Assembly: GCA_002085155.1 (NCBI GenBank)
Contig: NASX01000006.1
Location: forward strand, 1 to 64,000
Source of the DNA: Sorangiineae bacterium NIC37A_2
GTDB lineage: Bacteria > Myxococcota_A > Polyangia > Polyangiales > Polyangiaceae
Length of the DNA stretch: 64,000 bases
Reading direction: 5' to 3'
Shown: piece after piece, positions 1,347-43,566 of the stretch
Position numbering within the stretch: the stretch's first letter is position 1
Layout of the letters: each line of letters starts with the position of its first letter
Notes under the pieces: generated by a model
What the model was told of the DNA's origin: nothing
Databases searched by the model: none
What the model saw: the letters and a program-made list of their open reading frames with translations, nothing else
Program-made: the position numbers and the translations under genes

Positions 1347-1834
1347 TCGAAGATCTCCCGAAGGGGCGCTTCGTAGCGGGCCTTGAAGCGAGTGATGAAC
1401 TCCTGTTCATCGGAGACATCCCAGACATGGAGCAAGAGGGCGCTCCGATCGAGCGCGAGCTCCGACCAGACGGTCCCAGGGACCACCGTCGTCACCATGG
1501 ACAGCGCGGCGAGACCGAGCGGATCTTTGAGCTCGAGCGGTAAGACGACGAACTTCGATTGGGGACGGCGGAAACGCCAGAACACAACCCCCAAGGCCAC
1601 CTCGAAATTCGAGACCAGCACATCGTGGCCGACCCTGAGGATGAAGCGGGCGATCACGAGCGGATGGCGCACTCGGACCCGCGTCGGACGGAGTCTCGAG
1701 GTCAGCCAAGGCGCCACGAGCGCCAAGATGAGCCCGAGCAAGATCTGGCCCATGCTCGTCGAGCGCGCGAGCGCGAGCCACAGCGCGAGCAGCGCGGCCG
1801 ACATGAGCGGAGAGGGAAGCAAGCGCTGGCGCAT
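1343..1834 (-). CDS. mrpE: Na+/H+ antiporter subunit MrpE/MnhE
   Basis: 163 residues, the usual MnhE/PhaE length. It has two or three N-terminal membrane helices followed by a soluble domain containing the conserved TTVVPGTVWSEL stretch (family pattern ITLTPGTVxxxv) and a final charged helix. It is a structural subunit of the Mrp antiporter. It is separated from mrpD by 3 bp and overlaps mrpF by 4 bp. The protein contains the usual P-x-V-x-L-P-L-type segment just before the TP/VP motif. Confidence 0.9.
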   Translation of the reverse strand: MRQRLLPSPLMSAALLALWLALARSTSMGQILLGLILALVAPWLTSRLRPTRVRVRHPLVIARFILRVGHDVLVSNFEVALGVVFWRFRRPQSKFVVLPLELKDPLGLAALSMVTTVVPGTVWSELALDRSALLLHVWDVSDEQEFITRFKARYEAPLREIFE

Positions 1835-1837
1835 AAC

Positions 1838-3493
1838 TCAGGGCTCTCCTTCCGTTTCGGTCGAACCGCCGCCGCGAAGAACCGGGTTCGCCGACAAGAC
1901 CGTATCGATATAGAATTTCGGCCCGTGCAGACCGGACGCGGCGGCCGTCGTGTAGCGGAGCACCGGTTCGGCCCCAAAAGCGAGGCCAAAAGTCCCCGCC
2001 AGGAGCACAACCACCGCGATGCCCTCAACGCGAGTCGCCTTCGCCTGTCCGCCGCCGGACGACCAGAAAGAGCGGATGCCCACGCGGACGAGCGCGACGG
2101 TGCTCGCGAGACCCGAGAGCAGGAGCAGCCCACACAGCACCCAGCCCGCTGACACTCCTAAGGCGCGCTCGGTCGTATCGGCGCCCACGATCGCGGAGAG
2201 CAGCGAGAGCTTCGCGACGAATCCGGAGAGCGGCGGGATCCCAGCGATGACCATCACAGCGGCCATAAAGCCGAGCGCAATGAGCGCCGTCGAGACCGGA
2301 AGGACCCGTCCGACCAAGGGGCGCTCCTGATCGTCGAGGTTCGTGTCCTCGCCTGTCAGTCGGTCAGCATCATCGATATCGGCGAGAGGCGTCTCGTCGC
2401 TGTCGGTGATGCGTTCGATGAGCTCGACCAAGAGAAAGAGAGCGCTCGCAGCCAAAGTGCCGCTCAGGAGGTAGTAGAGGGCGGCCGCGGTCACCGCAGG
2501 ACTGCCCATCCCGAGCGCCGCGAGCAACGTGCCGGAAGATACGATGAGCGAATAACTCGCGAGGCGCGCGAGGCGCGCTGACGCGAGCATGCCGAAGGTC
2601 CCGAAAGCGATCGTGAGGAGGCCACCGCCGAGCAGCACCGACTGTCCGAAGCCCGCCGAGTCCCCGGCTTCCTCCGAGAAGAACAAAGTCCAAAGTCGCA
2701 GCAGCGTGTAGATGCCGACTTTGGTCATGATCGCAAAGAGCGCCGCCACGGGGGCGCTGGTCGCCGAATAGGCAGGTGCGAGCCAAGCGTTGAGCGGCCA
2801 GATCGCCGCCTTGATCAGGAAGGCGAGCGCCAAGATCGCAGCTCCCGCGTGCATGAGCCCCCGGTCTTGCGCCGCGACGAGAGCGACCTTGTCCGCCATA
2901 TCCGCCATCGTCAGGGTCCCGAGAACTCCGTAGAGAACCGAGAGCCCGATCAAGAACAGCGACGAAGCGACGAGGTTGACGGCGATGTAGTGAAGCCCCG
3001 AGCGCACCCGCGCGCGTCCCGAGCCGTGGAGCTGGAGCCCGTAGGACGCCGCCAGCATCACCTCAAAGAACACGAACAAATTGAAAAGATCGCCCGTCAA
3101 AAAGGCGCCGCAGAGCCCCATGAGCTGGATCTGGAATAGAGGATGAAAATAGACGCTCGCACGCATCCAGCGCGACTCGGCGTAGAGCGCAGAACATACG
3201 CCGACCACACTTGTCAGGACGAGCATGAGCGCCGAAAGCCGATCGGCCACGAGCACGATCCCGATGGGCGCGCGCCAGTTCGAAGCCAGATAGACGTGGA
3301 GGTTGCCCGAGCCGCTGCCATGGTCGACCCGGTTCAGGATCGTGACGGCCACGACGAGCCCGAGCAGCGTTGAGCTGACGCTGAGGATCGATTTGAGACG
3401 GCGACGTTGATCGTCGAGAAAAAGGAGCACCGCCGCGGTCAAGAGGGGCAGCACGATCGGCAGAACGATCAGATGCTGAAAGAGGAAATTCAC
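1838..3493 (-). CDS. mrpD: Na+/H+ antiporter subunit MrpD (NuoM/NuoN-like)
   Basis: 551-residue polytopic membrane protein of the proton-conducting complex I/antiporter family. The core (roughly residues 120-430) has the landmarks TGDLFNLFVFFEVM, AAILALAFLIKAAIWPLNAWLAPAYS (conserved Lys and the P-x-x-x-W-L-P/A-x-A-Y/H motif), and the following SAPVAALFAIMTKVGIY. These place the ion-path Glu and Lys residues in the expected helices. An acidic insert (about residues 365-395, TDSDETPLADIDDADRL) lies between helices and lengthens the protein relative to many MrpD proteins. The start overlaps mrpC by 4 bp. Confidence 0.93.
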   Translation of the reverse strand: MNFLFQHLIVLPIVLPLLTAAVLLFLDDQRRRLKSILSVSSTLLGLVVAVTILNRVDHGSGSGNLHVYLASNWRAPIGIVLVADRLSALMLVLTSVVGVCSALYAESRWMRASVYFHPLFQIQLMGLCGAFLTGDLFNLFVFFEVMLAASYGLQLHGSGRARVRSGLHYIAVNLVASSLFLIGLSVLYGVLGTLTMADMADKVALVAAQDRGLMHAGAAILALAFLIKAAIWPLNAWLAPAYSATSAPVAALFAIMTKVGIYTLLRLWTLFFSEEAGDSAGFGQSVLLGGGLLTIAFGTFGMLASARLARLASYSLIVSSGTLLAALGMGSPAVTAAALYYLLSGTLAASALFLLVELIERITDSDETPLADIDDADRLTGEDTNLDDQERPLVGRVLPVSTALIALGFMAAVMVIAGIPPLSGFVAKLSLLSAIVGADTTERALGVSAGWVLCGLLLLSGLASTVALVRVGIRSFWSSGGGQAKATRVEGIAVVVLLAGTFGLAFGAEPVLRYTTAAASGLHGPKFYIDTVLSANPVLRGGGSTETEGEP

Positions 3494-9407: not shown

Positions 9408-9959
9408 TCACGACGCTTCCGCTCCGCTTCGCTCGCTCTCCTCAAAGCATCCGCGTTCCTCACAAGTACAGGAAAGACACTGAGCCAAGGTCTCGACGCC
9501 GCAGTGGGAACGCACCCGATCCCGGAGCGCGCGCCGCGCGCGGTGGAGCCGCACAGCGGCGTTTCCCGTAGCGATCTGGAGATCGCCCGCGACGTCGGCG
9601 AGGGGCGCCCCGTCGATGTCGACACGCCTGAGGATGTCTTCGTAAGACTCGGGGAGCGAGTTGACGAGCGCGAGGGAACAGGAGCAGACGTCCCCTTCAG
9701 GCGTCGGCGGAGCTTCGACTTCATGGTCGTCGGGGAGCGCCACCTCGCGGCGGCGCTCCCGGAGAAGGTCGAGCGCGGAGGTCACGGCGATCCGCCGGAT
9801 CCAACCGTCGACTCGGTCCCGCTCTCGGAGGGATGCAAAGCGCTCAAGGGCGCGGAGGGAGGCCCGCTGGTACACGTCTCCCGCGTCCAGCGTCGGATAA
9901 CGACGCTGGATCATCCGCACGACGCTGCCGCGGAGGCGCGTCAGCGCCTCCGCGACCAC
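9408..9959 (-). CDS. ECF-type RNA polymerase sigma factor with Cys-rich C-terminal tail
   Basis: ECF sigma factor. A sigma2 helix region (VVRMIQRRYPTLDAGDVYQRAS, in parts RMIQRRYPTLDAGDVYQ and LRALERFASLRERDRVDGW) is followed by a Cys-containing linker (GDVCSCSLAL), a sigma4 helix-turn-helix (GAPLADVAGDLQIATGNAAVRLHRARRAL, in parts) and a tail with six Cys (CGVETLAQCLSCTCEERGCF). Cys in the linker plus a C-terminal Cys cluster is the layout known for the metal-sensing CorE-type factors of myxobacteria, so direct metal control without an anti-sigma factor is inferred. The frame stays open to 10109, but the extra N-terminus is Ala/Pro-rich and antiphase to a better-supported small gene. I therefore place the start at GTG 9959; it is uncertain. 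Confidence 0.75.
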   Translation of the reverse strand: MVAEALTRLRGSVVRMIQRRYPTLDAGDVYQRASLRALERFASLRERDRVDGWIRRIAVTSALDLLRERRREVALPDDHEVEAPPTPEGDVCSCSLALVNSLPESYEDILRRVDIDGAPLADVAGDLQIATGNAAVRLHRARRALRDRVRSHCGVETLAQCLSCTCEERGCFEESERSGAEAS

Positions 9960-9969
9960 CGCCCGTGCT

Positions 9970-10134
9970 TCACTTTCGCTTTGCGCAGGTGCAGCCACAC
10001 TCGGGTCCACAGGTGCAGGGGTTACAGGCGCACGAGCCGCCGCAGCGACATTCGGGCGCCGCTTGGGGCTCTTGGCCGCGCTGAGCTTCGGGGGTTCGAC
10101 AACAGGCACAAGTCTGATTCTGGTTTTCGATCAT
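9970..10134 (-). CDS. Metallothionein-like Cys-rich small protein
   Basis: 54 residues with 12 Cys: start MIENQNQTCACC, then PECRCGGSCAC, NPCTCGPECGCTC and a basic end AKRK. CxC, CC and CNPCTCG spacing is typical of bacterial metallothioneins, which sequester Zn, Cd or Cu in the cytosol. The start ATG at 10134 has an excellent Shine-Dalgarno (AAAGGAG, 6 nt away), the best in this part of the window. It ends 11 bp before the GTG proposed for the Cys-tailed sigma factor, so the two would form one operon. It overlaps the N-terminal extension of the longer sigma reading frame, which is why it is easily missed. Confidence 0.75.
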   Translation of the reverse strand: MIENQNQTCACCRTPEAQRGQEPQAAPECRCGGSCACNPCTCGPECGCTCAKRK

Positions 10135-10296
10135 GGTGATCTCCTTTCACCCGAGAGACGCAGCCACCCGTCGATCATTACACCCCCGAACAACAAAATC
10201 TTTCGAAGACTCCGATCGAGGTCCCGTTCTCAGAGACGGCCTCGCCCCGGCCCCCCGAGCGGCCTGGCTCCCGCCTCGACGAGAGCCGGCTCGTCG

Positions 10297-10342
10297 AATA
10301 TTACCCGGGTAATATTGACGACGAGTTTTACCCGGGTAATAT
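10297..10342 (+). promoter_or_regulatory. Promoter with two palindromic operators upstream of DUF2239 gene
   Basis: A perfect 20-bp palindrome, AATATTACCCGGGTAATATT (10297-10316), is followed by a second site with a 12-bp core TTACCCGGGTAA (10328-10339); centres are 27 bp apart. -35 TTGACG (10315-10320) and -10 TAATAT (10337-10342) are 16 bp apart, so the first site abuts the -35 and the second covers the spacer and -10. The GTG start of the gene (10350) is 8 bp below the -10, consistent with a leaderless transcript. The cognate regulator is not identifiable in the window. Confidence 0.7.
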
Positions 10343-10349
10343 TCCCCCC

Positions 10350-41976: not shown

Positions 41977-43566
41977 ATGGTGAAACTTAGACGGCAGAGA
42001 ACGGCGGCGTTCATCACGGCGTGCGCCATGGCAATGGGTCCTATGGTTGCCTGCGGAAGCAGTGGCGACGATGACGGAGATGGCCGTGGGGACGCCGGGG
42101 CCAGCGCCGACGACGGAGATGGGAGCGGGACCGGAAGCAAGACCGGCAGTGGCGGCAGGAGTGGCAGCGGATCCGGCGGCAAGAGTGGCAGCGGATCCGG
42201 TGGCAAGAGCGGCAGCGGATCGGGCGGCAAAGGCGGCAACGCCGACGATGAGGGCGGCACTGTCACCTATGCAGACCTCGTGAGCGCGGCGAAGCTGATT
42301 TATGACGACCTCGAGAACACCGAGGGCGAGCCCGACGACGACAAAGCTCCGCACATCGATCACCTCACTTCCCACATCGCAGGAGCCCTCGAAGCCTTGG
42401 GCTTCCCCTTCATCGATGAGGATGAACTGAGCGAGGACGAGATCACCGAAGAGGTTGAGGCCTTGCTCGACGAAGGAAGGCCCTTCGTCACCACGACTTT
42501 GGCGTACCAAATCGCGCGGGCCTACGAAGGCGGCATGCTCGTGGACGTCCCCGGATACTTTGAAGGCCTGGACGAGCAGGGTGTTTCGACGTTGCTCGGC
42601 GACCTGATCGGTCTGCAGGACTGGGTGGGTTCGCAGGTGTATTCCCAAGGTCTCACCGGGTCTCTCGACACAACGGCTCCCGTCGACCCCCAAAACATCA
42701 CGGCCGCCTTCCTTTGGGCTCTGGGGCAGGAACGTTCGGCCCGTCTCGAAATCATCGATGACCCGATTTGGGGTGACAACCGGCTCGACCCGCTGCAGTT
42801 CACGCTGCTGAACTACACGATCCTCTCCGCCCCCGGCACTAAGGACCGAACGCAATCGTTCCGCCCCCCCAAGGTCAGGCCAGCCTTCCTCGGCAAGTTC
42901 ATCAAGAAAGGCGCCAAAGACTTCATCAAAGAACAGCTCAAGGACCAACTGAAGGACCAGGTCACCGACGTCCTGCAGGACATCCTCGAGGTGCCCCTCG
43001 ATCCGCTCGAGGGAGCACAGGTCAGCGTCTGCGCCTCCATGTTGCTCTATGGCCACAAGGTGTACATCGAGAACGACCCGAAGGAGATTTGGCACAAGAA
43101 CTCCGGGTCCCCGAACTCCACGACCGTCAACCTCCTTTTGAACTTCGAAGACGACTACTCGAACAACACCAAAGGGCAGGTCGCGGCCTGGCTGAGCGAA
43201 TGTGAGCTTCCGGCCAAGGGTTACGTGCCCGGCAAGAAGATCAGAGAGTGGTCGGTGGCGGGCGGAATCGTCGGCCACGGCGAGTTCACCGAGAAGGACA
43301 CGGTCACCGATGAGCTCGGCACCGCCAGGGCCACTTGGGAGACCATCGAAGACAACATCAAAGAGTCTTGCAAGAAGGACGACGTCATGAACTACATCGT
43401 GGATGGCGTGACCCAGGCCAAGGTCAGCGGACTCCTTCCCAACTGGGGCAATCTCGAGACCATCGTGACCTTCCTCAATCCGAACACAGGCGCGGAGGGC
43501 TACGCCTCTCTGGCCGTGCGCTACAAAGCGCAGAGGAACGACCGGAACTGCCACTATCCGGATTGA
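41977..43566 (+). CDS. Large lipoprotein with Gly/Ser-rich linker
   Basis: 529 residues. Signal with lipobox MGPMVACGSSG, then an acidic and Gly/Ser repeat linker (SGSGSGGK units, about residues 50-90). The domain beyond (about 100-530) is mostly helical early, with DELSEDEITEEVEALLDEG and GYFEGLDEQGVSTLLGDLIG, and beta-rich late: VSVCASMLLYGHKVYI, NLLLNFEDDYSNNTKG, WSVAGGIVGHGEFTEKDTV, VTFLNPNTGAEGYASL. The C-terminal segment contains Ig-like strand patterns. No homologous family recalled. Its stop overlaps the start of the O-antigen-ligase-like gene by one base, suggesting a joint role at the cell surface. Confidence 0.75.
   Translation: MVKLRRQRTAAFITACAMAMGPMVACGSSGDDDGDGRGDAGASADDGDGSGTGSKTGSGGRSGSGSGGKSGSGSGGKSGSGSGGKGGNADDEGGTVTYADLVSAAKLIYDDLENTEGEPDDDKAPHIDHLTSHIAGALEALGFPFIDEDELSEDEITEEVEALLDEGRPFVTTTLAYQIARAYEGGMLVDVPGYFEGLDEQGVSTLLGDLIGLQDWVGSQVYSQGLTGSLDTTAPVDPQNITAAFLWALGQERSARLEIIDDPIWGDNRLDPLQFTLLNYTILSAPGTKDRTQSFRPPKVRPAFLGKFIKKGAKDFIKEQLKDQLKDQVTDVLQDILEVPLDPLEGAQVSVCASMLLYGHKVYIENDPKEIWHKNSGSPNSTTVNLLLNFEDDYSNNTKGQVAAWLSECELPAKGYVPGKKIREWSVAGGIVGHGEFTEKDTVTDELGTARATWETIEDNIKESCKKDDVMNYIVDGVTQAKVSGLLPNWGNLETIVTFLNPNTGAEGYASLAVRYKAQRNDRNCHYPD

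Follow-up and report, generated by a model that had tools for sequence, protein, structure and literature searches.

A metallothionein-like gene paired with a CorE-like ECF σ factor: a conserved operon, probably autoregulated and metal-sensing

Introduction

The described regulators closest to the one reported here are CorE and CorE2 of Myxococcus xanthus (ECF44, now placed in ECF238). Like the σ factor of this study they are ECF σ factors whose linker has a CxC motif and whose C-terminus is extended by a Cys-rich tail, and no anti-σ factor is linked to them. The Cys-rich domain of CorE is essential for copper-dependent transcription (PMC3107203), and both the Cys-rich domain and the CxC motif are essential in CorE and CorE2 (PMC8999054). 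In both proteins metal acts as the switch (PMC3107203, PMC8999054). Four Cys of the CorE tail are invariant (181, 184, 192 and 194); C184 is the main inactivation residue of CorE, and C174 sets the Cd/Zn choice in CorE2. CorE is partly autoregulated and governs an oxidase, ATPases and a protein with a heavy-metal domain; its promoter has a conserved G in the −10 element, 16–18 residues from the −35 triplet (PMC3107203).

We analyzed a locus in the window, a stretch of 64,000 nucleotides from Sorangiineae bacterium NIC37A_2, where a sequence-only reading had proposed that a metal-sensing σ factor controls its own metal sink. The locus shares features with several other known systems. OrbS of Burkholderia cenocepacia is likewise an ECF σ factor with an on-board metal sensor in a Cys-rich tail (PMC9023288), but it senses and is inhibited by Fe(II), its targets are siderophore genes and its Cys motif is not the same. 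SmtA and the Pseudomonas metallothioneins are small Cys-rich bacterial proteins like the one in the window, which, however, has no His, whereas theirs hold Cys-His clusters; the gene for SmtA also adjoins that of its own metal-dependent regulator (PMC7387436). That regulator, SmtB, is a divergently transcribed repressor, while the regulator in the window is a co-transcribed σ factor. A further comparison is MymT of Mycobacterium tuberculosis, a cytoplasmic metallothionein under the metal-sensing RicR (PMC10141476); RicR is a CsoR-type repressor with a five-operon regulon, whereas the predicted regulon of the window σ factor is its own operon.

Results

The window encodes a 54-residue Cys-rich protein

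The features of the locus are collected in Table 1. The small reading frame (9970–10134, minus strand) encodes MIENQNQTCACCRTPEAQRGQEPQAAPECRCGGSCACNPCTCGPECGCTCAKRK, a protein of 54 residues with 12 Cys, several CxC motifs and no His. It is small and Cys-rich as bacterial metallothioneins are, and it probably binds metal. In 40 Markov-1 random sequences of 64 kb with the dinucleotide make-up of the window, no stop-to-stop segment had 10 or more Cys per 45 residues. One further dense segment lies near 42.0 kb of the window (about 42043–42262, minus strand); it is Arg- and Cys-rich with 11 Cys in 45 residues and probably arises from reading repetitive sequence out of frame.

Table 1. Positions of the features of the locus in the window
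Feature	Position	Strand	Basis or detail
Operon promoter, predicted ECF type, TGTAATGAT-N13-CGTC	10157–10182	−	−35 at 10182–10174; −10 at 10160–10157
Shine-Dalgarno AAAGGAG of the small gene	10147–10141	−	6 nt 5′ of the ATG; read from sequence
Metallothionein-like gene	9970–10134	−	ORF; homologues upstream of clade σ genes; purifying selection
CorE-like ECF σ factor	9408–9998	−	Pfam σ regions 2 and 4; start GTG 9998 or GTG 9959
CSC motif in the σ2–σ4 linker	9678–9686	−	Both Cys kept in all 20 relatives aligned
Cys tail C-x7-C-x2-C-x-C-x4-C	9447–9503	−	First four Cys kept in all 20 relatives aligned

Searches of Pfam and NCBIfam with the window protein and 8 relatives gave no match beyond PF02067 at an E-value of 0.38. 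The nearest solved structure was a wheat-type Ec metallothionein (E 7.7), a match that reflects shared Cys spacing and nothing more.

Relatives of the small protein are mostly about 43–60 residues long and consist of CxC and CxxC repeats; their conserved positions are Cys almost throughout. For the small gene dN was lower than dS in all nine close pairs, for example 0.08 versus 0.66 in L128/L130 and 0.32 versus 2.54 in L034/L039; the ratio for L001/L032 is rough because this pair is diverged (dS 1.23). At most one Cys column was lost in seven of the nine pairs, and TGC/TGT changes are seen in six. The pairs L001/L032 and L005/L053 kept 11 of 15 and 11 of 16 Cys columns. This substitution pattern is that of a gene evolving at the protein level. 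With its conserved Cys pattern, purifying selection, Shine-Dalgarno sequence and promoter, the 54-residue, 12-Cys gene picked out by the sequence-only reading is real, and so is its overlap with the longer σ frame, which has a GTG at 10109.

The neighboring gene encodes an ECF σ factor with a Cys-rich linker and tail

The σ frame, which runs from 9408 to at least 9959 on the minus strand, matched Sigma70_r2 (PF04542) and Sigma70_r4_2 (PF08281) above cut-off, and its product resembles ECF σ factors in the PDB in both sequence and fold. A structure model (mean pLDDT 86.6) shows two confident domains joined by a disordered linker. Both of the Cys-rich regions claimed for the σ factor were recovered, the CSC motif in the linker and a tail that reads HCGxxxxxxCxxCxC....C.

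The start had been proposed to be the GTG at 9959–9957, which lies 10 nt beyond the stop codon of the small gene. This start is plausible but is not conserved in the nearest relative (L032, 71% identical), which has GCC at that place. The GTG common to the window and L032 lies 29 nt inside the small gene (9998–9996 in the window) and may be a by-product of the conserved GAG-TGT-GGC codons of that gene. At L005, L007 and L030 the two genes overlap or abut at the σ start, an arrangement which suggests translational coupling.

The gene pair recurs in unrelated bacteria

To collect the σ family we searched 59 genomes at the protein level and scanned 84,980 species genomes. At many of the σ loci a Cys-rich ORF lies directly upstream on the same strand. 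We found the pair in Myxococcota, Alpha- and Gammaproteobacteria and Acidimicrobiia, with hosts that include Polyangiaceae, other Myxococcota, Roseibium, Hyphomicrobiales and Acidimicrobiia; one gammaproteobacterium carries a second module.

We then built a tree of 106 nonredundant CorE-like σ factors, each having both the linker CxC and a Cys tail, using the cores only with the tails removed, and scored upstream stretches without annotation against antisense and downstream stretches as controls. The window σ factor belongs to a clade of 33 (SH-aLRT 98 in a quick search with midpoint root). The small gene lies directly upstream at 27 of the 33 loci in the clade, counting a 31-residue version at L065, versus 3 of the 73 outside it, fractions that describe the sample and not nature because resemblance to such σ factors was how the loci had been chosen. 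The control stretches never reached 10 Cys. The small-gene label changes 9 times on the tree versus 26.4 times when shuffled, and none of 500 shuffles was as low.

Four of the 33 clade members (L003, L017, L046 and L126) had no small gene that we could find. In another member (L120) the small gene lies one MerC-like gene further upstream; the order at L169 of G288 (about 1500–3000) is small Cys gene, MerC-like gene with His-rich stretches, σ gene, and at no other locus seen are the small gene and the σ gene parted by a third. In G169 the small gene (L168) is on a different contig than the σ gene (L129).

Across 377 Myxococcota genomes the small-gene profile gave 14 matches, 11 of them directly upstream of such a σ gene; the pair is absent from G001, which is of the same genus as the window genome. 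Samples of two other classes had strong σ-profile matches in 3 of 289 and 1 of 247 genomes, counts that take in the centre genomes and are not all of the small-gene type. This σ type is thus rare in broad samples of these two classes. On plasmids all σ relatives were below 42% identity to the L034 query, and tblastn, whose low-complexity filter may hide such a protein, gave no small-gene match.

The window σ factor falls in a clade apart from CorE and CorE2

In our set CorE is L088 (Cys 181, 184, 189, 192, 194 and 206) and CorE2 is L064 (Cys 173, 174, 178, 181 and 183), both matching the published numbering. Both fall outside the 33-member clade when tails are removed. Unlike the window, neither M. 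xanthus locus has a metallothionein-like gene in the operon. The window tail has the equivalents of CorE Cys 181, 189, 192 and 194 but not of 184, and the clade tail C-x7-C-x2-C-x-C-x4-C(C) lacks both C184 of CorE and C174 of CorE2. Since these equivalents are missing, we placed the window σ factor in a putative sister clade and did not file it as CorE. The comparison with CorE-type tails suggested beforehand therefore holds for the architecture, but the Cys tail itself is different.

The pair shares a predicted ECF-type promoter that is kept when the genes are separated

The pattern TGTAA-N15..19-CGTC stands ahead of the small gene at 23 of 29 loci (0.08 expected), and with the −10 element relaxed to GTC alone a promoter is present at 28 of these 29. 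L030 has the small gene with no promoter match, and at L169 the promoter was not found. The spacing agrees with the description of the CorE promoter. In the 5.0-Mb window genome the longer, strict pattern TGTAAKRAT-N11..14-CGTC has a single exact match, ahead of the window operon. The promoter is not specific to the 33-member clade, since TGTAA-N15..19-CGTC also lies ahead of the σ gene at 10 of the 77 CorE-like loci that lack the small gene (0.14 expected). Seemingly, then, it is the promoter through which a wider CorE-like group regulates itself, with the small gene inserted between promoter and σ gene.

In two genomes the genes have come apart. At L168 of G169 the small Cys gene has no adjoining σ gene and carries the promoter TGTAAGAATTGCAGGACCGCTACCGTC at 1425, and the separated σ gene of the same genome has also kept the promoter. 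In G381 the small gene is 3.5 kb from a σ gene and again has kept the promoter. Because these separated small genes keep the promoter, they are our best evidence, beyond neighborhood, that the σ factor acts on the small gene.

A search of the window genome for a wider regulon gave four looser matches, about as many as a reversed-pattern control, and by eye no obvious metal gene among them. Ten strict sites were found in 16 other genomes, six before such operons or a CorE-like σ gene and four without a clear target.

Neighboring genes differ between loci

The window operon is flanked by genes for DUF488 and DUF2239 proteins, which are not metal genes. No conserved third operon gene was present across the loci scanned, and the scanned neighbors in relatives gave no match to an anti-σ family. 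Since the neighbors differ between loci, the pair behaves as a unit. Single loci have a copper-type RND efflux system (L042), a DUF326 Cys-rich protein below the Pfam cut-off (L037), a ZIP zinc transporter (L039) or MerC (L169) nearby, and these neighbors agree on no metal.

Between the operon promoter and the DUF2239 gene the window has two copies of a palindrome, TTACCCGGGTAA, at 10297–10343. The palindrome occurs nowhere else in the 5-Mb genome, and the two copies are possibly the operator of some other regulator.

Discussion

Our data show that the small gene is real, that its linkage to the σ gene is conserved, that the two share a promoter and that the promoter is kept upon separation. 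For these reasons a metal-sensing σ factor with its own metal sink, as the sequence-only reading had it, is the best reading of the pair; conservation of the pair across classes, the ECF-type promoter, the separated small genes and protein-like evolution all support it. We consider it likely that the pair is an autoregulated operon in which the σ factor makes its own metallothionein sink. What we infer beyond this is that either protein binds metal, that metal activates the system, that the σ factor itself recognizes the promoter and that the feedback is negative, together with the identity of the metal and the response to it.

By analogy with CorE and CorE2, the σ factor would itself detect a surplus of a thiophilic metal, with the linker CxC and the Cys tail as its sensor and no anti-σ partner, and metal binding should activate it. 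The metal-loaded σ factor would then recruit RNA polymerase to the TGTAATGAT-N13-CGTC promoter, and transcription of the operon would yield metallothionein and more σ factor. As the metallothionein binds surplus metal, free metal would fall, the σ factor would lose its metal and the operon would turn off. A stronger version is tentative and to us rather doubtful: the metallothionein would be the off-switch of the σ factor, stripping metal from the thiolate site in place of C184 and Cu(I) in CorE, and the two proteins would form a thermostat without repressor or anti-σ factor. The equivalent of C184 is missing in all small-gene-linked clade members except L005.

The same operon could also answer another signal, with the tail sensing iron or thiol oxidation and the small protein acting as a redox or metal-storage buffer. 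Such a role is suggested by OrbS, in which a Cys-rich tail senses the Fe(II) that inhibits it (PMC9023288), by the lack of the CorE and CorE2 specificity Cys in the window tail and by neighbors that give no agreed metal. We think it improbable: the OrbS motif differs, inhibition by its own metal fits iron uptake and not a sink, and the linker CxC is common to the clade and to CorE-like σ factors.

For the small protein to be a zinc-binding anti-σ factor (ZAS, as RsrA) that frees the σ factor upon metal or oxidation is more improbable still, even though its gene, for a protein small and rich in Cys, shares an operon with an ECF σ factor and so occupies the usual position of an anti-σ gene. ZAS proteins need H-x3-C-x2-C within a helical body. 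The window protein lacks this motif, as it has no His, and its relatives are CxC/CxxC repeats of 43–59 residues. CorE, moreover, functions without a detected anti-σ factor (PMC3107203), and a small gene that leaves the σ gene yet keeps the promoter is better suited to a target gene.

There is very little likelihood that the small gene encodes a modified peptide of the bufferin type, which binds copper and is made by an MNIO enzyme. Such peptides often share a locus with ECF σ factors, and bufferin clusters do combine Cys-containing precursors with σ factor genes, but the precursors bear Sec signal peptides (PMC12452194), whereas the N-terminus here, MIENQNQTC, has none and is not hydrophobic. 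The only MNIO gene of the window genome (MbnB_TglH_ChrH; contig C79, 76545–77318) is far from the operon, and none was among the neighbors scanned. Just as implausible is a small ORF that is not a gene, with the σ factor beginning at a long N-terminus from 10109: although that frame is open, the small ORF and its Cys pattern recur in several phyla, and the ORF is under purifying selection, is present in G169 without an adjoining σ gene, and has a promoter and Shine-Dalgarno sequence directly before its start. On these points we rejected the anti-σ, bufferin and spurious-ORF readings of the small gene.

In a literature search that covered subscription papers thinly, we found no metallothionein paired with an ECF σ factor and no description of this operon. 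The kind of sensor is known, while the metallothionein–σ pairing and the tail type appear to be new. If the metal-sensing operon is as we propose, it would be the first metallothionein under a σ factor within the papers searched, and a metallothionein family outside Pfam and NCBIfam. The same pair in unrelated bacteria suggests a compact metal-defense circuit, and a self-contained sensor and sink of two genes, present in phyla that are not related, would be a ready-made metal reporter circuit. The residues tied to shut-off and metal choice in CorE and CorE2 are different in this tail, which makes it directly testable how Cys spacing sets metal specificity.

Other arrangements are present among the CorE-like σ factors. 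L143 of G287 is of the classic CorE-like type and apparently has two Cys-rich ORFs upstream, one on each side of the promoter. Five alphaproteobacterial CorE-like σ factors without the small gene (L076, L077, L089, L103 and L111) have a longer tail with extra Cys, a third tail type.
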